Assembly: GCF_900128985.1 (NCBI RefSeq)
Contig: NZ_FQUC01000011.1
Location: 1-64,000 of the forward strand
Direction: 5' to 3'
From: Indolivaga macrotermitis
Lineage (GTDB): Bacteria; Bacteroidota; Bacteroidia; Bacteroidales; Dysgonomonadaceae
DNA: 64,000 nucleotides
Shown: in pieces, positions 26,177-42,692 of the stretch
Layout of the letters: each line of letters starts with the position of its first letter
Numbering within the stretch: the stretch's first letter is position 1
Program-made: the position numbers and the translations under genes
Notes under the pieces: generated by a model
The model's input: the letters and a program-made list of their open reading frames with translations, nothing else
Databases searched by the model: none
What the model was told of the DNA's origin: nothing

Positions 26177-27277
26177 ATGAAAAAGCAATTTAAATTGTTA
26201 ATGTTATCAGGCGTAATGGCTAGTGCAGTATTGGCTTCTTGTAAAAGTAGTGATAGTGTGGTAGTATACGATGATCAGGCCAAAGGAACGGTCTACCGTG
26301 CTAATAGGGATACTAAGCGTCAGGACATGGAAACGGGTAGTACCAGAGTATATGCAAAGAAGAGTGCTAATCGCGATGTTATTACCACATACACTGCACC
26401 CGATGATGCTAGTACTGTAGTTCAGACAAAACGTGTTGTGCGTAGCAGCAACGTTCCTGTTGAAAGTAGTAGTTATTATGCACCCGATGCACCGAATGTG
26501 GCGATAGCTATTTCTCCTGCACCACAATATACTCCCGAATATGTTGATATGACAGGACAGCCTCAGTATAATACTTATCAGGCTCCGCAACCCGTTAGAC
26601 AAAACAGACAGACTTATCAGTCTCAGGACTATTATTATGATGATTATTCTCAACCCCAATATAATAGCGGACGTAACAAAGCTTTAGATAATAACTTGTC
26701 GAACAGACCAAATGCATATACTCTTTCTGACGATATGTATACCCCTGAGTATAGGGCTATGATGAATAGACGTCAGTCCAGAGTTAATAATCCGCAACAA
26801 GTGCAAAGATCTAATCCATATGATGGTTTGATGACTGTTCAGGATGGAAATGTTGTGCCATATGTACAATCTCAGCCTCAACAACAATATTATCAGGCCC
26901 AACCCCAACAGCAGTATTATCAGGCTCAGCCTCAGCAACAATATTACCAAGCTCAACCCCAACAGCAATATGCTGCACCTCAACAGCATTGTAATGCTTA
27001 TGTCGCTTCACAGCAGCCTCAACAATATGTTGTGCCTGTTCAACCACAGCAACAATATGAGTCTACTGTAGTTGAAGTGTATAGTGCTCCTGTACAGAAT
27101 ACTTATGCATCTAATGCGGCGGTATCTAACTATCCTGCTACTTTGTATTTCAAAAATGGAGCAAAATTGACAGGGGTTTTAGTTGAAATAGATAATGAAG
27201 TATGTCAGTTCAGAATGTCTGAAGGACGTACTGTTAACTTTGCGACTAAAGATATCCTTAAAATAGAGAGACGATAA
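26177..27277 (+). CDS. Gln/Tyr-rich repeat lipoprotein
   Basis: The signal peptide ends with LASC (Cys22). The mature protein has a disordered N-terminal half rich in Asp, Arg, Asn and Gln. A tandem repeat of nine residues (QPQQQYYQA) then occurs about four times from residue 233, and a compact C-terminal domain of about 45 residues (LYFKNGAKLTGVLVEID...FATKDILKIERR) resembles a small Sm-like barrel. It may be a surface or periplasmic spacer protein with a folded anchor domain. I know no function. The 27-bp repeat is probably variable between strains. Confidence 0.8.
   Translation: MKKQFKLLMLSGVMASAVLASCKSSDSVVVYDDQAKGTVYRANRDTKRQDMETGSTRVYAKKSANRDVITTYTAPDDASTVVQTKRVVRSSNVPVESSSYYAPDAPNVAIAISPAPQYTPEYVDMTGQPQYNTYQAPQPVRQNRQTYQSQDYYYDDYSQPQYNSGRNKALDNNLSNRPNAYTLSDDMYTPEYRAMMNRRQSRVNNPQQVQRSNPYDGLMTVQDGNVVPYVQSQPQQQYYQAQPQQQYYQAQPQQQYYQAQPQQQYAAPQQHCNAYVASQQPQQYVVPVQPQQQYESTVVEVYSAPVQNTYASNAAVSNYPATLYFKNGAKLTGVLVEIDNEVCQFRMSEGRTVNFATKDILKIERR
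26873..26974 (+). repeat. 27-bp tandem coding repeat
   Basis: About 3.8 units of a degenerate 27-bp repeat encode QPQQQYYQA. Units start at 26873, 26900, 26927 and 26954 and differ by synonymous CAA/CAG and CCT/CCC changes. Confidence 0.85.
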
Positions 27278-27365: not shown

Positions 27366-28733
27366 TTAGCCGACAGTCGAAAACCTTTTATCAGTATTCA
27401 GCATCAGTTTATCAAGAGAGGCCGCCACATTACGAACGAATGGTGTAGCTCCCGGAAGTATGCGGATATGGTTGTTGTCGTATTCGATTATTCCGTCCTG
27501 CGCGAATGCCTTTAAAGCACTATCGCTGTAGTTTAATGCAGCTTTGATATCTTCTACATTGCTATTTAGATGTGTGGCTAGATCTGTCCAGTGAATTTCG
27601 TAGTTACACATAAGAGAAGTAATTACTTCTCGTGTGATTTGCTCTTCCCGGTTCAGGGCATAACCTTTCAATACAGGAAGTTGCCCCGCATTTACTTGTT
27701 TGATATATCTATTCAGGTCTTTGGTGTTCTGGCTGTAAGCGGTAGAAAGCTGGCTGATACCTGTAACCCCGAAGGCGTACACTTGTCCTGTGGTACGACG
27801 GGTACAATATCCCTGAAAGTTACGGTGCAGATTCTTGTTTTGTTGTGCAATATACAGTTCGTCTTCCGGGCGGACAAAGTGGTCGAGCCCTACAGTGCAA
27901 TATCCGGCATCGGTTAGTAGCCTGCGGGCTGTTTCGTACAATTCATTTTTTTGTACGGCGTTTGGCAGGCCTGTTTTCTCCAGAAGGGCCATCTTTGGGT
28001 TTACCCATGGAACATGTGCATATGAGAATGTTACGAGCCGGTCGGGCTTCATTCCGATGGCTTTATTTATTGTATTGGCAAATGTTTCGGGGGTTTGCAG
28101 AGGTAGTCCATATATGAAATCCATATTCAGAGCGATGCCTTTCGATTTTAATAATCCGGCTATTTCCTCTACAGGCATTTTCGACGGTTTTCGGTTTACC
28201 GCTTTGAGTACTTTTTCGTCGAAATCCTGAATACCTATACTGAGACGATTGAATCCCGCATCTATCAGGTCCATCCAGTACGATTCGTCTAAATATCCGG
28301 GATGGCATTCGATCGCTATTTCGGGATTATCTATGGTCTGAAATCTCGATAGCAGCATCCGGTTTATTTCTTTCAAAACAGATACCGGCTGTGATGTGGG
28401 GCTGCCTCCGCCGTAATGTATTTGGGCTATTTTTCTGCCCGGATCGAGTAGGGGAAGCACCATTTCTATCTCGCGCTTTACTGCATCGATATAGTCGGAT
28501 ACGACTCTTTTGTTTTCGAGCAATAAGGCATTGCAGCCACAGTAATGGCACATCTTGAAACAAAATGGTATATGTATATAGAACGAAATATCCTGCGGTT
28601 GCTCTTTATTTGATTCGACTATTGCATTATGGTAGCTGACCCTATCGAAAGATTCGGTAAAGAAATTAGCTGGAGGGTAGCTTGTGTAGCGGGGTACGGC
28701 TACGTTGTATTTATTGAGTAACTCTTGTTTCAT
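27366..28733 (-). CDS. hemN: Oxygen-independent coproporphyrinogen III oxidase
   Basis: A radical-SAM enzyme that decarboxylates two propionates of coproporphyrinogen III to give protoporphyrinogen IX without oxygen. Its 455 residues match HemN. The cluster motif HIPFCFKMCHYCGCN (Cys58, Cys62, Cys65, plus Cys67) is the true HemN form, with the extra CGC of E. coli HemN, rather than the HemW form. Further motifs are QIHYGGGSPTSQP, IECHPGYLD, RLSIGIQDF and MDFIYGLPLQT, plus a C-terminal HemN domain. The start overlaps the MFS gene by 23 bp, so the two are co-transcribed and probably translationally coupled. They share a dyad-controlled promoter at 30007-30053. Confidence 0.93.
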   Translation of the reverse strand: MKQELLNKYNVAVPRYTSYPPANFFTESFDRVSYHNAIVESNKEQPQDISFYIHIPFCFKMCHYCGCNALLLENKRVVSDYIDAVKREIEMVLPLLDPGRKIAQIHYGGGSPTSQPVSVLKEINRMLLSRFQTIDNPEIAIECHPGYLDESYWMDLIDAGFNRLSIGIQDFDEKVLKAVNRKPSKMPVEEIAGLLKSKGIALNMDFIYGLPLQTPETFANTINKAIGMKPDRLVTFSYAHVPWVNPKMALLEKTGLPNAVQKNELYETARRLLTDAGYCTVGLDHFVRPEDELYIAQQNKNLHRNFQGYCTRRTTGQVYAFGVTGISQLSTAYSQNTKDLNRYIKQVNAGQLPVLKGYALNREEQITREVITSLMCNYEIHWTDLATHLNSNVEDIKAALNYSDSALKAFAQDGIIEYDNNHIRILPGATPFVRNVAASLDKLMLNTDKRFSTVG

Positions 28734-29955
28734 TGTCAGATATGTTTTTCTTGAAAATCAAAAGAATATATATCAGGGAGAAAGCAGCTATAGCGCTTTC
28801 GAATAAAAAGAGGTTAGCATAACCAAGTTCACCTGCTACTTTTCCGGCAGCAGCAGCCATAAGCATTCCGCTGAGATGAGTAATAACTGTCTGTATCGTA
28901 AAATCGGTACCTTCGTAACCTTTCCGCACGCTGTCCATTGCTGTCGTATACACCACAATGGTAGACATACCGTAGCTAGCCCATAGAAGGGTAATGCCCA
29001 GGTGAAGCGTAGCAGTGTTGACCTGAAGGTAGGTTATTAGCATGTAAAAATAGATTGTGGTTATAAGGGTGAAGCCGGCAAAGATGATACGTGGCCAGAA
29101 ACGCCCGAACCGACGAACTATGAATCCGCCCGACAGTGAGCCGACACAGCCTATAGATGTACCTATAATACCGGACATAACTCCTATCTCCTTCATATTA
29201 TAACCATAGTCGACGAGCATAGGTTTCAGCATGGCAAGTGTGCCGATAAGTCCTGCATAATAGAAAAACAGAAAAATAATTTGTTTCCAGATACCTCTTT
29301 GTTTGAAGAACCCTAAAAGATCGTCGGGATGCGGTGCTTTCATTTCCTTCTTCTTTTCGGGCTGGTCTGCTTGTTCCGACTTAAAGAAAAAGAGAGGAAT
29401 GAGAGCTAATACAACAAATAATGCCAGATAGGGGAGTAGTTGGTTCCATCCTATTTTGTGGTACAGTAATAAAAGTATACCTCCACCAATCATTGCTCCG
29501 GCAAAACTTCCTACCGATTGCATGCTGTTTACGAGGCTTTTGTCTTTTTTATCGAAAGAAAGAACTGCCAGCGCATCTGTCGCAATGTCCTGAGTGGCCG
29601 ATGCCACAAATGAAAATATTATGAGAGCGACTATAGTATATATACTGGTTTCGAGATCGAGGAAAGAGATTGCTAATATGATAACGGCGTAAATAAGTTC
29701 GGACGAAAAGATCCACCTCTTGTAGTGGCTCAACTTATTACAACTGCGGTCGACAGCAGGAGACCAGAGAAACTTCAGTACCCATGGGAGTTTCATAAAC
29801 TGAAGAAGCCCGATTGTTTCCAATGAAAAATGTTGCTGGCGCATCAGTACCGGCAAAATAGTTGAGAAAAAACTCATCGGTATTGTTTGAGCAATATAAA
29901 GACACAGGAATGTAAAGAGCCGACCTCCGTTTTCTATACCTCGGTTTAGATTCAT
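28711..29955 (-). CDS. MFS permease coupled to hemN (AmpG/RhtX-like)
   Basis: A 414-residue, 12-segment transporter that opens RLFTFLCLYIAQTIPMSFFSTILPVLMRQQHFSLETIGLLQFMKLPWVLKFLWSP. This is the signature style of the AmpG/acetyl-CoA transporter/RhtX-FptX branch of the major facilitator superfamily, which moves muropeptides or siderophores inward. A central charged loop lies near residue 200 (EKKKEMKAPHPDD). Overlap with hemN and a promoter dyad shared with a TonB receptor suggest import of an iron or tetrapyrrole compound. That substrate is inference. Confidence 0.85.
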   Translation of the reverse strand: MNLNRGIENGGRLFTFLCLYIAQTIPMSFFSTILPVLMRQQHFSLETIGLLQFMKLPWVLKFLWSPAVDRSCNKLSHYKRWIFSSELIYAVIILAISFLDLETSIYTIVALIIFSFVASATQDIATDALAVLSFDKKDKSLVNSMQSVGSFAGAMIGGGILLLLYHKIGWNQLLPYLALFVVLALIPLFFFKSEQADQPEKKKEMKAPHPDDLLGFFKQRGIWKQIIFLFFYYAGLIGTLAMLKPMLVDYGYNMKEIGVMSGIIGTSIGCVGSLSGGFIVRRFGRFWPRIIFAGFTLITTIYFYMLITYLQVNTATLHLGITLLWASYGMSTIVVYTTAMDSVRKGYEGTDFTIQTVITHLSGMLMAAAAGKVAGELGYANLFLFESAIAAFSLIYILLIFKKNISDNETRVTQ

Positions 29956-30006: not shown

Positions 30007-30053
30007 CAAATTTACGAAATACTATCGGGTGACCAAATCACTATTTGTAGTGA
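30007..30053 (-). promoter_or_regulatory. Promoter of MFS-hemN with activator-like dyad
   Basis: On the minus strand, TAAATTTG (30007-30014) is a perfect -7 box, preceded after exactly 19 nt by TTTG. Touching that -33 box is the perfect dyad TCACTA-N4-TAGTGA (30038-30053), with ACC/GGT extending it outward. The dyad begins 83 bp from the start codon. The same dyad sits 83 bp upstream of the TonB receptor at 33697-35793. The rest of the 29956-30318 gap shows nothing else. Confidence 0.75.
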
Positions 30054-30318
30054 GTCGGTTTGTGCCTGTTTTTTTATATTATTAGAGATTGTATGTTGAT
30101 AACTTTATAGCCTAGCATAGTGGTTGTTATGGAAATATTCTTAATTTTGGTAAACTTTATTCTCAAATACTGTGTTTAGGGTAATAAAATTAATTACTCT
30201 GTGGTGGAATTTACATAAATACAGCAGGGGTGCTGGTAGTTGATAATCCATACAGAGCGCGCAACAGGAATTCTGTTTGACGTACTGGACGTGTTTTTAT
30301 TTAAAAGAAAGAAATGGA

Positions 30319-31026
30319 ATGCCTGATTATACTATAATAGAACATTATGTAGACAAAGCGATAGCTTTGGCTCGCAAGCATCACGAATATCTGATGTATA
30401 TCGACCGGTATTATATTCAGATGTATGGAGATGAAGTACAACCCGAAATGTATATCGGATCTAACCCCGAAGAGTATAAGCTAAAGCCTAAGCTGATGAA
30501 GTTGGTGCAACCTGATACCAGCGGATTAATAGTTACCAAAATAACAGATGAGTATAAAGAGTGGAAGCCTGTTCCCGCTAATGTTGTGCAGAAAGATATC
30601 AAAGAACTGGAATCATATTATTCAATAAAACTGCCCGACAGTTACAAATGGTATCTGGGATATATGCATTTTTATCAGATTTTCTGGAATATCGATATCA
30701 AGTTGTATCCGTCTCCAATAAATGTTTGGCAGTCTGTATTGAAGAAAAAGAATGACGAGAAACGACAATTTATCTTAGATAAGGGGCTGTTCAGCATTGG
30801 TGAATACAGTGACCATGCTGATATTTGCTTCGACCTTTTAGATGAAGACTGTGAGAATGGAGACTACCGTATTGTTTACGTAGATCACGAATCTGCTGAT
30901 GAGCCGGAGCTATTGGCTTCTAATTTTCAAAGTCTTTTGTCAGATATTCTAACCAAACCCGAACCTGAACTGAAAGAACTTAATGCTTCGGAACAACGTT
31001 TATTCGGTGATATTCTTAAGGCTTGA
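30319..31026 (+). CDS. SUKH (SMI1/KNR4) family protein
   Basis: ATG at 30319 gives 235 residues. The frame can be extended only to a TTG at 30277. The SUKH fold signature is visible: VVQKDIKELESYYSIKLPDSYKWYLGYMHF, then KGLFSIGEYSDHADICFDLLDE and DYRIVYVDHE, and a final LASNFQSLLSDIL. SUKH proteins are often immunity proteins against polymorphic toxins or cell-signalling adaptors. No toxin gene is adjacent, so the role is open. An N-terminal extension of about 80 residues precedes the domain. Confidence 0.8.
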   Translation: MPDYTIIEHYVDKAIALARKHHEYLMYIDRYYIQMYGDEVQPEMYIGSNPEEYKLKPKLMKLVQPDTSGLIVTKITDEYKEWKPVPANVVQKDIKELESYYSIKLPDSYKWYLGYMHFYQIFWNIDIKLYPSPINVWQSVLKKKNDEKRQFILDKGLFSIGEYSDHADICFDLLDEDCENGDYRIVYVDHESADEPELLASNFQSLLSDILTKPEPELKELNASEQRLFGDILKA

Positions 31027-31077
31027 GCTTATCTTGTTGATGTAGGTAGGGGCTTCATTCCTTTAAGGGAAGTTTGC

Positions 31078-31842
31078 TTACAATAACCCCATAAGCTTAG
31101 CGACCCGGCATGCCTCCAAAGAGTTTTTGACTCTCAGCTTTTCTAATATATTCTGGCGGTGCCTGTTTATAGTGTAGATACTGATTGATAGCGTCTCGGC
31201 AATATCTTTGCTCATTTTCCCTTTTTCTATTAATGATAATATTTCTTTCTCCCTTTTAGATAAAATATTATTACACTTTTTTACATCCGGTTGTAGAGTC
31301 TCACCCGTAGAAGAATTGATGATTAATCCTTCAGATACATCAAACTCTTGCTTTACTGGTAAGAAGTCGTAAAGACAAAGCGATAACCATAAATTACCTA
31401 CGATACAGCCACTGACATAAAACATCCGGTGTTGTATTGCCATATATTCACCATCATTATTTTTCATCCGCATTTTGCTCCTGACATAATAATCCGGACG
31501 CTCTTCTAAAGGCATGGATTTTAATAGGTGAAAAAATTGAAGTTCCAGAGAATGCTTCATTAATAAATCGTCAGGATGGATTCTGTCAAAAATATCTTCT
31601 TCCCAGATTGAATTTATATTTTTCGCACTGCCTTTTTCGGCGATACCCAGCTTCTCCGCGACGCTACCATTATATATATAGCTTTTATTAGCTTTCAAAT
31701 CGCTAAGAACCGCCATCGAATTTTCGATCAGCGAATAACCGTATGCAATCTGCTGATACTTTGAGAGGATATTGAATTCATCTTCTCCTTTGGAAAAAGG
31801 CTGCCTTAAGAGTTGCTCACTTAATGTAGAGACTATGTTCAT
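31078..31842 (-). CDS. LuxR-type HTH regulator with PAS-like sensor
   Basis: A 254-residue protein. The first 190 residues resemble a PAS-like sensor: ENSMAVLSDLKANKSYIYNGSVAEKLGI, FDRIHPDDLLMKHSLELQFFHLL and MKNNDGEYMAIQHRMFYVSG. The C-terminal 65 residues are a LuxR/GerE helix-turn-helix (LSKREKEILSLIEKGKMSKDIAETLSISIYTINRHRQNILEKL). This arrangement is common in Bacteroidota and lacks a receiver domain. It lies between the MFS-hemN unit and the TonB receptor and is a candidate, not a proven, controller of their shared dyad. Confidence 0.88.
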   Translation of the reverse strand: MNIVSTLSEQLLRQPFSKGEDEFNILSKYQQIAYGYSLIENSMAVLSDLKANKSYIYNGSVAEKLGIAEKGSAKNINSIWEEDIFDRIHPDDLLMKHSLELQFFHLLKSMPLEERPDYYVRSKMRMKNNDGEYMAIQHRMFYVSGCIVGNLWLSLCLYDFLPVKQEFDVSEGLIINSSTGETLQPDVKKCNNILSKREKEILSLIEKGKMSKDIAETLSISIYTINRHRQNILEKLRVKNSLEACRVAKLMGLL

Positions 31843-31896
31843 TTTATCATCTAAAAATGGTTATTAATCAGTATTGACTATTATTATACAGGTATT

Positions 31897-31904
31897 TATC
31901 TTTG
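31897..31904 (+). promoter_or_regulatory. Putative -7 box for the DUF1349 operon
   Basis: TATCTTTG matches TAnnTTTG and lies about 63 bp before the start. ATTG occurs 20 nt upstream as a weak -33 box. Confidence 0.4.
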
Positions 31905-31966
31905 TAAATGTAGTTTTTTATATGGTTATTTAGCTAAATATTTTACAAAAAATAATTCTTTTTAAT

Positions 31967-32626
31967 ATGTTACACATGAATAAGTTTTTGATTTTTAGTA
32001 TTCTGATCTTTATTTCAGGCAATACAATGGCACAGAGTTTAGAAAAGATGCAATGGTTTAACGAACCTGAGCAATGGGAAATAAAGGATAATACCCTCTC
32101 TATGTATGTTACTCCTCAAAGCGACTACTGGCGCATTTCTCATTATGGATTTACTGTAGATGATGCTCCTTTCTATTATACTACTTACGGAGGGGAATTT
32201 GAAGTAAAAGTAAAAATATCGGGCGACTATAAAGTACGTTTCGACCAGTCGGGTTTGATGTTGCGTATAGACCCCCAGAACTATATTAAAACGGGAATAG
32301 AGTTTGTCGACGGAAAGTATAACCTGAGCACAGTTGTTACTCATAAAACGAGCGACTGGAGTGTTATTACTTTAGATAAGCCTGTACCGTTTGTCTGGAT
32401 AAAAGCTGTAAGGCGATTGGATGCTGTAGAAGTGTTTTATTCTTTTGATGACAACGAATATGTAATGATGCGGAATGTGTGGTTACAAGATAATTGCCCT
32501 GTGATGGTTGGGTTGATGGGAGCTTGTCCGGATGGAAATGGATTTACCGCCAGATTTGAGAATTTTTCGGTGAAGCATTTACCCGATCAGCGCAGGTTGA
32601 ACTGGTTGAAAAACAATGCGGAATAA
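31967..32626 (+). CDS. Exported DUF1349 (concanavalin-like) protein
   Basis: A signal peptide (MNKFLIFSILIFISGNTMAQ) is followed by a beta-sandwich of about 190 residues typical of DUF1349: FNEPEQWEIKDNTLSMYV, DYWRISHYGFTVDDAPFYYT, FEVKVKISGDYKVRFDQSGLMLRID and YVMMRNVWLQ. Such proteins resemble laminin-G/lectin folds and some bind carbohydrate. Two starts 9 bp apart are possible (31967 or 31976). The second gives the cleaner signal peptide. It is followed at 33 bp by the VOC gene. Confidence 0.85.
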   Translation: MLHMNKFLIFSILIFISGNTMAQSLEKMQWFNEPEQWEIKDNTLSMYVTPQSDYWRISHYGFTVDDAPFYYTTYGGEFEVKVKISGDYKVRFDQSGLMLRIDPQNYIKTGIEFVDGKYNLSTVVTHKTSDWSVITLDKPVPFVWIKAVRRLDAVEVFYSFDDNEYVMMRNVWLQDNCPVMVGLMGACPDGNGFTARFENFSVKHLPDQRRLNWLKNNAE

Positions 32627-32658
32627 TATCTTGAAATAATTGATTAAAAGTAACGAAA

Positions 32659-33045
32659 ATGAAGATAGAACATATTGCAATCTATGTAGAAGATATTGAG
32701 TTGGTTCGTAAATTCTATATGGAATATTTAGGGATGGTTTGTGGTGAGAAGTATGTAAACCCGAAGAGAAACTTTACTTCTTATTTTCTGTCTTTCGGAG
32801 AAAATAGAACCCGTATAGAGCTGATGCATATTCCGGATATGGCAGCTCCTGTAAGCCGGGGTAACTTGAAAGGACTGGCACATTTTGCTATTTCCGTCGG
32901 AGAAAAGGGTAGGGTTGATGAACTTACCGAAAGGTTGCGCAAAGATGGATATACAATTGCAAGCGAACCCAGAACAACGGGTGATGGATATTATGAAAGT
33001 GCAGTACTCGACCCTGAAGGAAATTATGTGGAAATCACGGAATAA
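32659..33045 (+). CDS. VOC (glyoxalase/bleomycin resistance) family protein
   Basis: A 128-residue single-domain vicinal-oxygen-chelate protein with paired beta-alpha-beta-beta-beta units. IEHIAIYVEDIELVRKFYMEYLGM supplies the first metal His, IELMHIPD the Glu, GLAHFAISVG a second His, and AVLDPEGNYVEITE the last Glu. It resembles lactoylglutathione lyase-like proteins of unknown substrate. The stop is followed after one base by the start of a HAD phosphatase, so the two are tightly coupled. Confidence 0.88.
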   Translation: MKIEHIAIYVEDIELVRKFYMEYLGMVCGEKYVNPKRNFTSYFLSFGENRTRIELMHIPDMAAPVSRGNLKGLAHFAISVGEKGRVDELTERLRKDGYTIASEPRTTGDGYYESAVLDPEGNYVEITE

Positions 33046-33046
33046 G

Positions 33047-33658
33047 ATGGATGAAATAAAGAATATAATATTTGATTTTGGAGGTGTGCTGATTGATTGG
33101 AACCCCTTATATCTTTATCAGGATGTGTTTAAAGATGAGTCCGAATTAAATTTCTTTTTGAATGAGGTTTGTAATCATAAATGGAATGAGCAGCAGGATG
33201 CAGGGCGTCCTTTTATAGATGGTATTGTCGAATTGGTTTTGAAATATCCTGATTATAGTAAAGAAATAGAGCTTTTCTATACCCATTGGATAGATATGGT
33301 TGGTGGCGAGATAATTGAAAATACCTTATTGATAGATGACCTGAGAGCGGAATATCTTTTGTTCGGATTAACGAACTGGTCTGTTGAGACCTTTCCGCTG
33401 GTGTATCATAAATATCCTTTTTTCGAAAAATTAGATGATATTATAATCTCGGGAGAAGAAAAACTTATAAAGCCCGATCCCGAGATATATAAACGATTAC
33501 TTCTAAGATGCGGAATTGAAGCCAAAAACTCACTTTTTATAGACGACAACGAAGCGAATACTAAAGCCGCCTTTAATCTGGGATTTCACACTATCCATTT
33601 ACAGCAAGGAATGAACTTAAAGGATGAAATGAGAAAAAAGGGAGTCTGCATTTCGTAA
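33047..33658 (+). CDS. HAD-superfamily hydrolase (YihX-like)
   Basis: The ATG at 33047 gives 203 residues starting MDEIKNIIFDFGGVLIDW. A longer in-frame reading that runs back into the VOC gene is rejected. All HAD motifs are present: nucleophile Asp in FDFGG, GLTNWS, the lysine in EEKLIKPDPEIY, and the acidic pair in SLFIDDNEANT. The FDxGG form is that of the YihX branch (sugar-phosphate phosphatases). The substrate is unknown. It is coupled to the VOC gene. Confidence 0.9.
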   Translation: MDEIKNIIFDFGGVLIDWNPLYLYQDVFKDESELNFFLNEVCNHKWNEQQDAGRPFIDGIVELVLKYPDYSKEIELFYTHWIDMVGGEIIENTLLIDDLRAEYLLFGLTNWSVETFPLVYHKYPFFEKLDDIIISGEEKLIKPDPEIYKRLLLRCGIEAKNSLFIDDNEANTKAAFNLGFHTIHLQQGMNLKDEMRKKGVCIS

Positions 33659-33696
33659 TACAATACTTCACTGAACGTTCGTATTATGGCTATATA

Positions 33697-35793
33697 TCAG
33701 AATTTAACATTGATATTCGTCCCGAATGTAAATGGTCTGCCTGCCTGTGCGAAAGTTTTACCCATAGATGTAAAATAATAGGTAATATAGTCTTTGCATC
33801 CGATATTTTTGGCCCACAAGTCAATGGATATATTTTTAGCTACGAATGATATTTTTCCGTTGAATACTCCGTAATAAGGTTGTGATGCAAGATTGTCTTC
33901 GTTCCAATACAGTTTGCCTAAACCTACGTATTGTCCGTTCAGAACGATCTTATCCAGAAAAGTATTACGTAATCTGATGGAGTAGTTAGCTGTTGTGGAG
34001 AAAGTATTTGACGGAACCATGGGGAGATAATTATCTGCATAACTAAGCTCTTCATTTACAGTATATCGTTTGAATTTGGCATGGGTATATCCATAACTGA
34101 GTTGTATGCTCAGGTTTTCCAGCGGATTTATATGTACTGTAGCCTCAACTCCCTTGCTAACCGATTTGCCGGCGTTCCGTAGCAGAAATCCTTTGCCGCT
34201 GGGTTGTGATTGCGAGATCTGTTGATTTTTCCAATCGATGTAAAAAAGGCTTATTTCGGTGTAGATTAAATTATCCAGGCAGCTGGCTTTAGTGCCTATT
34301 TCGTAATTCCAGCTTTGTTCGGGTTTGAAAGCCCGGTCTTTTTCATCCTCAACGGTAGTGTTGAACCCTCCTGATTTATAACCTTTCGAAACAGAGAAAT
34401 ATACAATCTCGTCGTTCGTGAAACGGTATTGCAGGGAGGCTTTGGGGGTGAATTGCGAAAAGTGGTCTTTTTTTCTGATATTCATTGTTTCCGTAATACT
34501 ATTGTCGGGCTTTAAGCTATTCACAACAGTATGCATTCTGGTTTGCTCCCAGTCGTAACGTGCGCCAAGTATCAGAGACAATCCTTCTGTAAACAGGTCG
34601 TTGATGGTCGATTGGTGGTATAGTGCCACACCTCTGGTAGGAGTACTTATATCCTGAAGTGTGTGTGTCTGTGTACTCCGGTAATCGATATCGTTATCGG
34701 TGCTAAAGTCCTGCACGAAACCGAAAGCTCCCCATTGCCATTGGTATTTGCTGCTTCCTGTCGATTTCAGGTTAAATTCCTGTGAAACCATACGCTGTCT
34801 TTGACCGAAGTCAACAAAATAGAGATCGTCGGGGCTGAAATCCTGGTCGATTCCCTGCCGTCCGTCAAAATACTGGAACGACGATTGCGAGCTCAACTGA
34901 ATACGGTTGGTAGTATAAGCGACATTTAGTCCCGAGGTCGAAACATTGCGGCGATAAAACGAAGGTTCGTTATAATTGACCTTTTGCACAGTATTATCCT
35001 CCGGATTGTATATCCCGTATGGGTAACCACCCTGATCGGAGTATTCGTATGCCGATGTCAGATGAATATATAATTGAGGGTTTACATGCCAGCTGAGGCG
35101 GATGCGTCCGGCTGCCGCGTCCACGGGATCCGACCTTTTACCTGTAAATTGATTCCGGAAGTAACCTCCTGAGTGCGAAATGTTCCCGGAAGCAGAATAT
35201 CCGAAAATATTGTTGATGTTTCCGTAATGTGAAGCCTCCGCTTTATAGTTGTCGTAACTAGCAGCAGAAAGAGACAGGTTCGTCTCTTTATATTTGAATG
35301 GAGATTTGGTATATACATTGATAATTCCACCCATGGTGTTTCTTCCGTATAAGGTTCCCTGAGGTCCCCTGAGAACTTCTATCCTGTCGATGTCGTTGAG
35401 ATTGAAATCGAAGGTAGACCTGTCGAAATAAGGTATTCCGTCAATGTACAATCCGACGGATGGCGCATTGATACGTGAACCTATCCCCCTGATATATGCC
35501 GGAGAGGTCATTTTAGAACCGTAATCGGGTATAAACAGGTTGGGTACATATGCACTTACTTCTTTTATATTACTGATGTTCCGGTCTCTTATAGTTTGGT
35601 CGGTGATGAGGGTTGCCGAAACCGGTTGAACCGAAATATTATCGTTCTTTTTAAACGCTTGTATTACGATTTCATCTGCCGTATAAGACATCTTTATCGA
35701 ATCCTGAGGAATATGGATGTTGTCTTCGGCCTTGATAATGTGTGTATTCAACAGTAAGGTGTAAAGAAAAATCAAAGTATAGCTTCTTTTCAT
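33697..35793 (-). CDS. TonB-dependent outer-membrane receptor
   Basis: A 698-residue receptor without the carboxypeptidase-regulatory domain of SusC-type proteins, so of the siderophore/porphyrin class. The signal peptide ends near KAED. A TonB-box-like region and plug follow (VQPVSATLITDQTIRDRNISNIKEV, IRGIGSRINAPSVGLYIDGIPYFDRSTFDF, IEVLRGPQGTLYGRNTMGGIINVYTKSP), then the 22-strand barrel ending FGTNINVKF. It resembles ferric-siderophore receptors. The promoter carries the same dyad as the MFS-hemN operon, at the same 83-bp distance, which suggests a shared regulon. The ligand is unproven. Confidence 0.92.
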   Translation of the reverse strand: MKRSYTLIFLYTLLLNTHIIKAEDNIHIPQDSIKMSYTADEIVIQAFKKNDNISVQPVSATLITDQTIRDRNISNIKEVSAYVPNLFIPDYGSKMTSPAYIRGIGSRINAPSVGLYIDGIPYFDRSTFDFNLNDIDRIEVLRGPQGTLYGRNTMGGIINVYTKSPFKYKETNLSLSAASYDNYKAEASHYGNINNIFGYSASGNISHSGGYFRNQFTGKRSDPVDAAAGRIRLSWHVNPQLYIHLTSAYEYSDQGGYPYGIYNPEDNTVQKVNYNEPSFYRRNVSTSGLNVAYTTNRIQLSSQSSFQYFDGRQGIDQDFSPDDLYFVDFGQRQRMVSQEFNLKSTGSSKYQWQWGAFGFVQDFSTDNDIDYRSTQTHTLQDISTPTRGVALYHQSTINDLFTEGLSLILGARYDWEQTRMHTVVNSLKPDNSITETMNIRKKDHFSQFTPKASLQYRFTNDEIVYFSVSKGYKSGGFNTTVEDEKDRAFKPEQSWNYEIGTKASCLDNLIYTEISLFYIDWKNQQISQSQPSGKGFLLRNAGKSVSKGVEATVHINPLENLSIQLSYGYTHAKFKRYTVNEELSYADNYLPMVPSNTFSTTANYSIRLRNTFLDKIVLNGQYVGLGKLYWNEDNLASQPYYGVFNGKISFVAKNISIDLWAKNIGCKDYITYYFTSMGKTFAQAGRPFTFGTNINVKF

Positions 35794-35845
35794 TTCAATC
35801 CATTTTTTTTTCTTAAAAAAAGAAAAAATTAGTTTTTAGTTTTTG

Positions 35846-35891
35846 CAAAGTTACAAAACTCTAGAACATCGGCAATCACTAGATGTGGTGA
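35846..35891 (-). promoter_or_regulatory. Promoter of the TonB receptor with activator-like dyad
   Basis: The minus-strand -7 box TAACTTTG (35846-35853) is preceded by 19 nt and ATTG. The dyad TCACTA-N4-TGGTGA (35876-35891) overlaps this upstream position and begins 83 bp before the start codon. One half-site base differs from the perfect dyad at 30038-30053. Confidence 0.7.
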
Positions 35892-41531: not shown

Positions 41532-42692
41532 ATGAAAGTTACTTCTGTATTTAACCGTAACCTGGAGGCTTATAACCAGGAAAAACGGATTATCGTAAAC
41601 AAAGGATCGACCCGTTCGTCTAAAACATGGAGTATACTCCAGCTGCTTTACCTGATAGCGGAGTCGTCATCTGTACCCCGTCTTATATCCATCGTCTCGG
41701 AATCGATGCCGCATCTGAAGAAAGGGTGTATACGTGATTTTGAAAATATGCTACGGACTGAGAATAAATGGGATAGGAGGGCGTGGAATGCTACGGACAA
41801 GATGTATACAGTAAACCATTCGCGCATCGAGTTCTTCTCGGCAGACCAACCGGCTAAAGTGCACGGCCCTGCCCGCGACATTTTATATATGAACGAATGT
41901 ATTAATGTTCCTTTCGAGACTTATCGTCAATTGGCTATCCGTACTCGCGAAACGATATTTCTGGATTATAATCCGTCGCATGAATTTTGGGTAGACGAGA
42001 AGGTCTTGACACGTGCCGAATCGGTCTTGATACACTCTACATATCTGGATAATGATTTTCTTACCGATGTACAGGTGCAGGAAATAGAATCAAATAAAAA
42101 AGACGCCGAATGGTGGCAGGTCTACGGATTGGGGCAAACCGGTTCTAAAATAGGATTGATTATGCAAAACTGGGAAATCGTACCCTCACTGCCTTCTACC
42201 TACAAGCAACGCTGGGTAGGTATAGACTTTGGGTTTACCAATGACCCGACAGCTATAGTGGAGGTAAGGCTTGCGGAGGGAGCTTTGTGGATGCGTGAGC
42301 TGCTCTATGCCAGAGGGTATGATAATATAATGATAGGCAATTACATGGATGAACTGAATATTCCGCATAGCATATCTATTGTAGCCGACAGTGCAGAACC
42401 GAAATCAATCAGCGAGATACGCCATCAAGGATGGGCTATAGAGCCAGCCAATAAGGGACGGGATAGTATTCTGGCAGGATTGTCGATACTGAACCGTTAT
42501 CATAAATACCTGACCGGAGATAGCACTAACCTGATAAAAGAATTTCGGAATTATCGCTGGATGACTGATGTTTCGGGCAATCCTACCAATACACCTATCG
42601 ACCGTTATAATCATGCTATAGATGCTTTACGGTATGTTGCATTGAATAAAATGTCCCGAAAAGGAAATTTCGACTACTATATAAAACGGTAA
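41532..42692 (+). CDS. Orphan PBSX-type phage terminase large subunit
   Basis: These 386 residues are the full length of a PBSX-family TerL, the motor that packages phage DNA. Walker A is GSTRSSKT (residues 25-32), and the Walker B-like strand is DILYMNEC. The C-terminal RuvC-like nuclease has all three acidic positions: Asp232 in VGIDFGF, Asp286 in VADSAEP and Asp364 in HAIDALRY. Nothing suggests decay. No portal, small terminase, capsid or tail operon lies next to it. The neighbours are an outer-membrane barrel and an NlpC/P60 peptidase. An intact terminase alone among housekeeping genes is odd: a remnant, or a gene kept for a function. Confidence 0.9.
   Translation: MKVTSVFNRNLEAYNQEKRIIVNKGSTRSSKTWSILQLLYLIAESSSVPRLISIVSESMPHLKKGCIRDFENMLRTENKWDRRAWNATDKMYTVNHSRIEFFSADQPAKVHGPARDILYMNECINVPFETYRQLAIRTRETIFLDYNPSHEFWVDEKVLTRAESVLIHSTYLDNDFLTDVQVQEIESNKKDAEWWQVYGLGQTGSKIGLIMQNWEIVPSLPSTYKQRWVGIDFGFTNDPTAIVEVRLAEGALWMRELLYARGYDNIMIGNYMDELNIPHSISIVADSAEPKSISEIRHQGWAIEPANKGRDSILAGLSILNRYHKYLTGDSTNLIKEFRNYRWMTDVSGNPTNTPIDRYNHAIDALRYVALNKMSRKGNFDYYIKR

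Follow-up and report, generated by a model that had tools for sequence, protein, structure and literature searches.

Why do near-identical inverted repeats stand at one and the same distance before two genes in a stretch of DNA from Indolivaga macrotermitis? The stretch, 64,000 nucleotides of contig NZ_FQUC01000011.1 (hereafter the window), carries TCACTA-N4-TAGTGA at 30038-30053 before a gene for an MFS transporter followed by hemN, and TCACTA-N4-TGGTGA at 35876-35891 before a gene for a TonB-dependent receptor (TonB2). A preliminary description of the sequence had reported both dyads, each 83 bp from a start codon, and both were recovered as described. We consider it likely that the dyad acts as operator in a conserved regulon for the acquisition of porphyrin or heme precursors and iron, activated from a class II position by a protein that joins a RIC/hemerythrin-like part to a LuxR part (RIC-LuxR), in Dysgonomonas-type and Parabacteroides-type bacteria. 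The window genome is labelled G000 and the window contig C15; sampled genomes carry G labels and fetched loci L labels. The promoter elements in the window are:

30038..30053, minus strand: operator dyad before MFS-hemN, TCACTATTTGTAGTGA at these coordinates and TCACTACAAATAGTGA in minus-strand reading, 0 mismatches
30034..30037, minus strand: -33 box TTTG abutting the MFS-hemN dyad, by sequence reading
30007..30014, minus strand: -7 box TAAATTTG of the MFS-hemN promoter, starting 23 bp past the dyad
35876..35891, minus strand: operator dyad before the TonB2 receptor, TCACTAGATGTGGTGA at these coordinates and TCACCACATCTAGTGA in minus-strand reading, 1 mismatch
35873..35875, minus strand: -33 element TTG abutting the TonB2 dyad, by sequence reading
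35846..35853, minus strand: -7 box TAACTTTG of the TonB2 promoter, starting 22 bp past the dyad

Both genes lie on the minus strand, with 83 bp from the near edge of the dyad to the ATG (29955 and 35793), and along that strand the dyad is followed by a TTG-type -33 element and then by a TAnnTTTG -7 box. Bacteroidetes-type promoters have TTG or TTTG at -33 and TAnnTTTG at -7, and the two window promoters, like those gathered from other loci, are of this type. The 19-nt spacer attributed to both is less uniform: the boxes are present, and the TonB2 spacer is 19 nt only if its -33 element is read as ATTG, which shares the last base of the dyad. The dyad-to--7 spacing thus listed differs by 1 bp between the promoters. 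Crp/Fnr sites are oriented TGTGA-N6-TCACA; the half-sites here are reversed, with TCAC outward, in line with the earlier view that another regulator is involved. BlaI/CopY-type operators have the sequence TACANNTGTA, and their spacing, judged by eye only, differs from that of the dyad.

Palindromes lying at equal distances by chance would be the simplest explanation, and the window alone gives it some room: with up to two mismatches five dyads occur against 3.21 expected, an unremarkable count reached by 23 of 100 shuffles. With up to one mismatch there are two, against a shuffle mean of 0.2 (two were reached in 1 of 60 shuffles). The decisive support comes from relatives. In 61 genomes sampled from the window's family, G000 among them, a scan of the kind the preliminary description had proposed found 74 exact dyads against 10 for a reversed control pattern, and 47 of the 61 genomes hold at least one. 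The dyad precedes TonB-receptor, MFS-hemN, cydDC-like or PepSY genes at 60 of the 74 sites. By neighbour, the exact dyads comprise TonB2 (30), TonB1, a second TonB receptor of ~700-820 aa (22), MFS (2), TonB/PepSY (3), cydDC-like (2), TonB-HmuY (1), a lipoprotein-like gene (1), 12 inside called open reading frames (ORFs), about the number expected from the control, and one unclassified (G029:C2:1179981). Three sites were classified from other evidence, without a fetched locus (G000:C15:30038, G000:C20:45199 and G019:C1:658447), and the identity of TonB1 beyond L180, L278 and the tblastn matches comes from reading translations, without a family search.

Conservation is clearest at TonB2, where 34 of 36 orthologous places have an upstream dyad with at most one mismatch and protein identity falls as low as 37%; 30 of these dyads are exact and four have one mismatch (G000, G031, G002 and G025). 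The dyad was not found at TonB2 of G009:C183, which lies at a contig end, and a scan limited to the exact pattern found none at TonB2 of G007. Among the 80 named loci, those called Bacteroides, Alistipes or Draconibacterium have no dyad with up to two mismatches upstream of the receptor. In its best form, TCACTAC-AT-GTAGTGA, the operator consists of two palindromic 7-bp half-sites separated by 2 bp. The dyad is therefore real, and probably a conserved operator in Dysgonomonas-type and Parabacteroides-type bacteria; its conservation before orthologous genes, together with a fixed -7 spacing, is decisive against chance and leaves coincidence, already called unlikely in the preliminary description, extremely improbable.

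That spacing was evaluated in 83 promoters gathered by hand from family, Parabacteroides-type and other loci, after removal of L047 and L048 (MFS dyads in the wrong orientation) from 85; L277 enters in both orientations. The rows are related sequences chosen for a dyad before a gene of interest, and the dyad columns are thus conserved by selection; the choice of rows did not depend on the -33 bases, the dyad centre or the -7 spacing. A TAnnTTTG-like -7 box with at most one mismatch lies exactly 23 bp past the dyad in 71 of the 83, and the next best offset accounts for 6. Exact TAnnTTTG boxes number 31 at 23 bp, 3 at 22 and 1 at 24. The bases directly past the dyad are T (80), T (80) and G (73), so that the abutting -33 element, first noticed at the two window promoters, recurs in most of the set. 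By the usual Bacteroidetes numbering the dyad is centred near -42.5, which is the usual position of a LuxR-type class II activator and its lux box.

The preliminary description left open whether an activator or a repressor at -33 binds there. In the latter case the same operator would let a repressor block the -33 box until released at iron or heme shortage; the dyad does abut -33 in most of the gathered promoters, where repressors also act, and the sections available of two papers call the PG1237 product (CdhR) a repressor of hmu (PMC2671838) and report that CdhR represses mfa1 and luxS (PMC4082711), the second of which also speaks against the activation that we prefer. However, fixed 23-bp phasing to the -7 box suits a class II activator and is needless for a repressor, the paper that PMC2671838 cites is titled 'a novel transcriptional activator', and a review, in the part available, says activator and names PG1237 as activator of hmuY and hmuR (PMC3832793). 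We therefore think repression unlikely: position, phasing and most of the CdhR/hmuYR literature favour an activator, without proving it.

Which genes would such an activator control? The whole G000 genome has 14 dyads with at most one mismatch, against 6 for the control pattern; four of these dyads lie between genes and have a -7 box at an offset of 22-23 bp, namely those of MFS-hemN, TonB2, hemG (C26) and a TonB-HmuY pair (C2). The C2 dyad has an exact -7 box at 23 bp and precedes genes for a TonB receptor and an HmuY-family protein (PF14064, E 1.4e-15). The small iron- or heme-type regulon that had been predicted thus gains hemG and the TonB-HmuY pair. Both go beyond the preliminary description, as do the regulator candidate and the larger operon of some Parabacteroides-type loci, to which hemG and a second TonB receptor belong. 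A dyad of its own, with at most one mismatch, precedes hemG in G000, G005, G026 and G033; it is missing at hemG of G019.

Some further sites were noted beside these. In G019 an XRE-like helix-turn-helix (HTH) gene, identified by reading (L327:877-1281), lies upstream of hemG at the place of the dyad in the four other genomes. At L003:1501-1516 (G000:C20:45199), close to where a transporter-like ORF has its 3' end, an exact dyad has an exact TATTTTTG at 23 bp and lies ~235 bp before a 385-aa gene; it may be due to chance. A one-mismatch dyad at L009:1501-1516 (G000:C22:235614), ~100 bp before a gene that reads as a TonB receptor, was left out of the regulon for its poor -7 box (2 mismatches). 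Exact dyads lie ~100 bp before cydDC-like ABC genes in G026 and G033 (L113:4001, L114:4001), without a 23-bp -7 box, and before TonB siderophore receptor and PepSY membrane protein genes at L107:4001, L107:6543 and L137:4001, with non-canonical -7 spacing; the latter perhaps represent another promoter type.

The two window promoters had been taken as separate units that share an operator and have unrelated genes between them. This part of the preliminary description did not survive comparison with relatives, where both prove to be parts of one cluster of TonB receptor and MFS genes, mostly with hemN. The genes concerned are:

33697..35793, minus strand: TonB-dependent receptor of the siderophore-receptor type (TonB2), with Plug and beta-barrel Pfam domains; TIGR01783 E 6e-54, under cut-off
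30277..33658, strand not given: intervening genes (SMI1/KNR4, LuxR-type, DUF1349, VOC, HAD), excluded from the regulon, the TonB2-MFS gap being at most 145 bases in other genera
28711..29955, minus strand: MFS transporter, RhtX/FptX/AmpG-like; Pfam MFS_1 above cut-off, TIGR02718 E 8e-54 and TIGR00901 E 3e-47, both under their cut-offs
27366..28733, minus strand: hemN, oxygen-independent coproporphyrinogen III oxidase, overlapping the MFS gene; TIGR00538 451 bits, cut-off 325

MFS is found in 36 of the 61 family genomes (E <= 1e-60) and TonB2 in 35 (E <= 1e-100). The two are adjacent by coordinates in relatives, with a gap of at most 145 bases, mostly tens, outside the window's genus. Because the TonB receptor and MFS genes neighbour each other in this way, the two window promoters are not independent. 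Within the genus the gap ranges from 123 bp in G038 through 330 in G033, 342 in G026 and 803 in G005 to ~1.8 kb in G019, where it holds only an SMI1-type gene and a 63-aa ORF, and ~3.7 kb in G000. A second dyad precedes MFS in five of these six genomes (0 mismatches in G000 and G019, 1 in G026 and G033, 2 in G005); it was looked for before MFS of G038 and not found. hemN lies at most 4.5 kb downstream in 61 of the 69 named loci that have at least 3.2 kb of downstream DNA; except in the window, L171 and L180, the gene was recognised by a short peptide or translation reading, without a family search. The G000 cluster is split by other genes, with each part keeping an operator, and the second operator would seem to predate the insertion between TonB2 and MFS.

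A candidate for the regulator emerges from the gene order of Parabacteroides-type loci. Three of them (L171, L174 and L180) read RIC gene, LuxR gene, dyad, TonB1, TonB2, MFS, hemN, hemG; the hemG of L180 is above the TIGR00562 cut-off, and the RIC partner at this locus matches TIGR03652 at E 3e-12, far under cut-off, with no Pfam hit for the domain. When 16 Parabacteroides-type loci were checked by short peptide strings, a RIC gene lay upstream of the dyad in 12. The LuxR gene ends <100 bp from the dyad in L171, L174, L177, L180 and L192. In L173, L179, L181, L186 and L202 it precedes the dyad by ~0.7-1.4 kb. L187 and L188 gave no LuxR match to the strings, although L188 has a 193-aa ORF at this place. 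RIC and LuxR are two adjacent genes in Parabacteroides-type genomes and one protein of ~290 aa in the window's family, which in G000 is:

L246:859-1731 (G000:C8): fused RIC-LuxR protein of 290 aa with a C-terminal GerE/LuxR HTH (PF00196 E 4.5e-16)

Queried with the LuxR of L180, 58 of the 61 family genomes match, 56 with an open frame of ~290-340 aa. An alignment of the fused sequences, obtained from 29 of 30 fetched loci, was read as a RIC-like part joined to a LuxR part. Of 198 genomes of the order, 190 have a match to the fusion profile, which in many is spread over separate neighbouring genes; in G164:C59, for example, adjacent genes match profile positions 3-152 and 200-292. Pfam Hemerythrin is above cut-off for the RIC partners in G223 and G089. 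In the alignment E98, H100 and H157 are conserved in 29 of 29 sequences, H184 in 26 and H91 in 22. An AlphaFold2 model of the G000 fusion, built from 14 sequences (mean predicted local distance difference test score 74.4, residues 1-31 <50), has long helices and a C-terminal HTH, which Foldseek places on DNA-bound NarL (1je8; TMt 0.80, 1.5 A, E 0.07); no Foldseek match of the model reached E 0.001. The regulator is most likely this RIC/hemerythrin-like plus NarL/LuxR-type protein, which we presume to bind the dyad; it probably activates, and related proteins of gut and oral bacteria have been connected with iron and heme. The LuxR-type gene within the window itself (31078-31842) was considered and rejected, as its BLASTP alignment to the Parabacteroides LuxR spans 50 HTH residues only and the gap between TonB2 and MFS in G019 lacks it.

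Several results weigh against this regulator and the regulon assigned to it. In the group of cydDC-like, TonB/PepSY and TonB-HmuY promoters the 23-bp spacing occurs in one of six, the TonB-HmuY of G000, and the five cydDC-like and TonB/PepSY rows lack a -7 box there. In 195 genomes from outside the family the exact pattern is not enriched, with 19 occurrences where the control has 29, and at 30 hmuY loci of other genomes (55 genomes have HmuY) no intergenic dyad with up to two mismatches was found except one before a TetR gene. Neither RIC nor LuxR was found nearby in four of the 16 Parabacteroides-type loci (L158, L175, L178, L185). Pfam hemerythrin is absent from the fused protein, the 29 aligned fusions show no evident H-x3-E pair such as a full di-iron site would have, and the remainder of the model matches YtfE weakly (Foldseek E 0.12-0.23). 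A position weight matrix scan found no dyad at the fused regulator gene in G000, G005 and G006 (L254-L256), so that autoregulation was not seen. G008 has a TonB1 dyad and no LuxR match at 1e-5; in G031, which has a TonB2 dyad, the only LuxR frame is a shorter one. Both assemblies are fragmented. Finally, a second LuxR protein of ~205 aa is widespread in the family.

The last of these observations, with the missing dyad at the fused gene in three genomes and the absence of a fused-size LuxR match in G008 and G031, would fit another regulator, for instance this shorter LuxR paralogue, with the RIC-LuxR neighbourhood in Parabacteroides-type bacteria either coincidental or an extra target. However, HTH identity to the Parabacteroides LuxR is ~52-70% for the best fused-size proteins against ~43-54% for most short ones, and in G017 and G032 LuxR matches, exact dyad, TonB2 and MFS are all missing together at the thresholds applied. 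Three of the 19 dyads outside the family adjoin RIC-LuxR, in three different families: in G164 the LuxR gene ends 30 bp ahead of the dyad, and a TonB1-like gene follows it; in G223 it lies between flavodoxin and RIC-LuxR, with a -7 box at 23 bp on the flavodoxin side and none on the RIC side; and in G089 it lies directly before RIC-LuxR, with a -7 box at 23 bp. We judge a different regulator improbable and retain RIC-LuxR as the candidate. Four further outside dyads (G071, G119, G137 and G240) precede TonB Plug-domain genes.

What would the regulon do? hemE is above cut-off in one of the 61 family genomes, with weak sub-cut-off matches in 11 more; hemH is above cut-off in 52 and the TIGR00562 oxidase in 20. 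At L150, L158 and L162 an FAD-oxidase-like gene (Pfam Amino_oxidase in L162) is divergent from TonB2, with the dyad between them. TonB receptors and an RhtX-like MFS clustered with HemN and HemG fit the import of a porphyrin precursor, and the dyad genes are probably a small set that takes up and finishes porphyrins, the substrate being deduced from this gene content. Cells without HemE that have HemN, HemG and HemH could use external coproporphyrin(ogen) or protoporphyrin. Porphyromonas gingivalis keeps HemD, HemN, HemG and HemH, according to a source available in part (PMC13227078).

The operator, its conservation and geometry, the genes around it, the splitting of the cluster and the synteny of the candidate regulator are computed results; from them we infer regulator binding, activation, the signal and the imported substrate as one sequence of events. 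Iron or heme shortage would be the signal; a LuxR dimer would bind the dyad centred near -42.5 and recruit RNA polymerase by class II activation, raising expression of the TonB receptors, the RhtX-like MFS, HemN and HemG. A porphyrin precursor, plausibly coproporphyrin, would then be imported by the TonB receptors and MFS, and heme finished from it in cells without a recognisable HemE. Tentatively, and with more doubt than confidence, we suggest that the fused hemerythrin-like/LuxR protein is a one-component sensor of iron (or O2/NO) acting through a rigidly phased class II operator on the import of other microbes' late heme precursor (coproporphyrin), which HemN, HemG and HemH would finish in heme-auxotrophic Bacteroidales.

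Comparable regulators have been described. The sections available of a 2023 transcriptome paper present PG1236-38 and BT0519-20 as a hemerythrin and response-regulator operon induced by iron depletion, report the PG1236-PG1237-type pair as fused in Prevotella intermedia, state that CdhR regulates the heme operon hmuYR by an unclear mechanism, and call knowledge of the molecular mechanisms of iron-dependent regulation in Bacteroidetes scarce (PMC10434189); CdhR is named as regulator of hmuYR in a further paper, likewise available in part (PMC9666725). PG1236-PG1237 (CdhR) of P. gingivalis and BT0519-BT0520 of Bacteroides thetaiotaomicron resemble the pair described here, a hemerythrin-domain gene followed by a LuxR-type regulator, a likeness drawn from these partial literature descriptions and not from sequence. 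No CdhR operator consensus was found in the literature searched, as far as its available sections go, and the original papers (Wu 2009, Chawla 2010) could describe one. The G000 operator also precedes a TonB-HmuY pair; unlike in the CdhR/hmuYR system, the targets include hemN, hemG, an RhtX-like MFS and two TonB receptors, and the hmuY loci of other genomes are mostly without the dyad.

The operator also resembles NarL/FixJ-LuxR 7-2-7 sites, being likewise a 16-bp palindrome of two heptamers around a 2-bp centre, with a GerE-type HTH in the candidate regulator, and it shares the class II position of the lux box. The NarL heptamer is TACYYMT. Here, in contrast, the heptamer is TCACTAC, and Pfam finds no phospho-receiver domain. 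With the di-iron proteins RIC, YtfE and ScdA the candidate shares the TIGR03652/Hemerythrin matches of its partner, the long helices of the fusion model and the YtfE Foldseek matches; unlike them, the partner comes with a DNA-binding domain, either in one protein or from an adjacent gene, and its metal site appears incomplete by sequence. CdhR-type iron regulation becomes testable with an operator of fixed promoter geometry, a list of targets and a candidate for the regulator. The cluster also proposes why bacteria without a recognisable HemE keep hemN and hemG, namely for salvage of precursors from outside, with a possible link to cross-feeding.

In other families the operator may drift in sequence yet keep its geometry. 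TCCCTA-N4-TAGGGATT was tried as an order-wide variant and is not general, with matches in 3 of 198 genomes against 2 of 198 for the control. One of the three, TCCCTATTTTTAGGGA at L354:1503-1518 (G160), precedes feoAB (Pfam) with an exact TAnnTTTG 23 bp downstream, and in the same genome the near-variant TACCTATTTTTAGGGA (L299:2658-2673) precedes genes for a lipoprotein-like protein, HmuY and a TonB receptor, with an exact TAnnTTTG at 22 bp. Directly after the RIC-LuxR pair, AAATCCCAACTTTTAGGGATTT (L264:2973-2988) and AAATCACTACTTTTAGGGATTT (L267:2780-2795) have an exact -7 box at 23 bp, and the gene behind them reads as an outer-membrane barrel, the L267 fragment having no Pfam hit. A scan of 50 loci for a degenerate dyad with a -7 box gave 8 rows, against 1 in all 10 mononucleotide-shuffled sets, a result that serves as a lead only, L353-L355 having been fetched for the motif, L257 having the exact dyad and three rows lacking a good -7 box.

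Elsewhere in the window, 41532-42692 encodes a phage terminase large subunit (Pfam Terminase_3, Terminase_3C), and a lipoprotein-like ORF at 26177-27277 contains, by reading, glutamine/tyrosine-rich QPQQQYYQA repeats.

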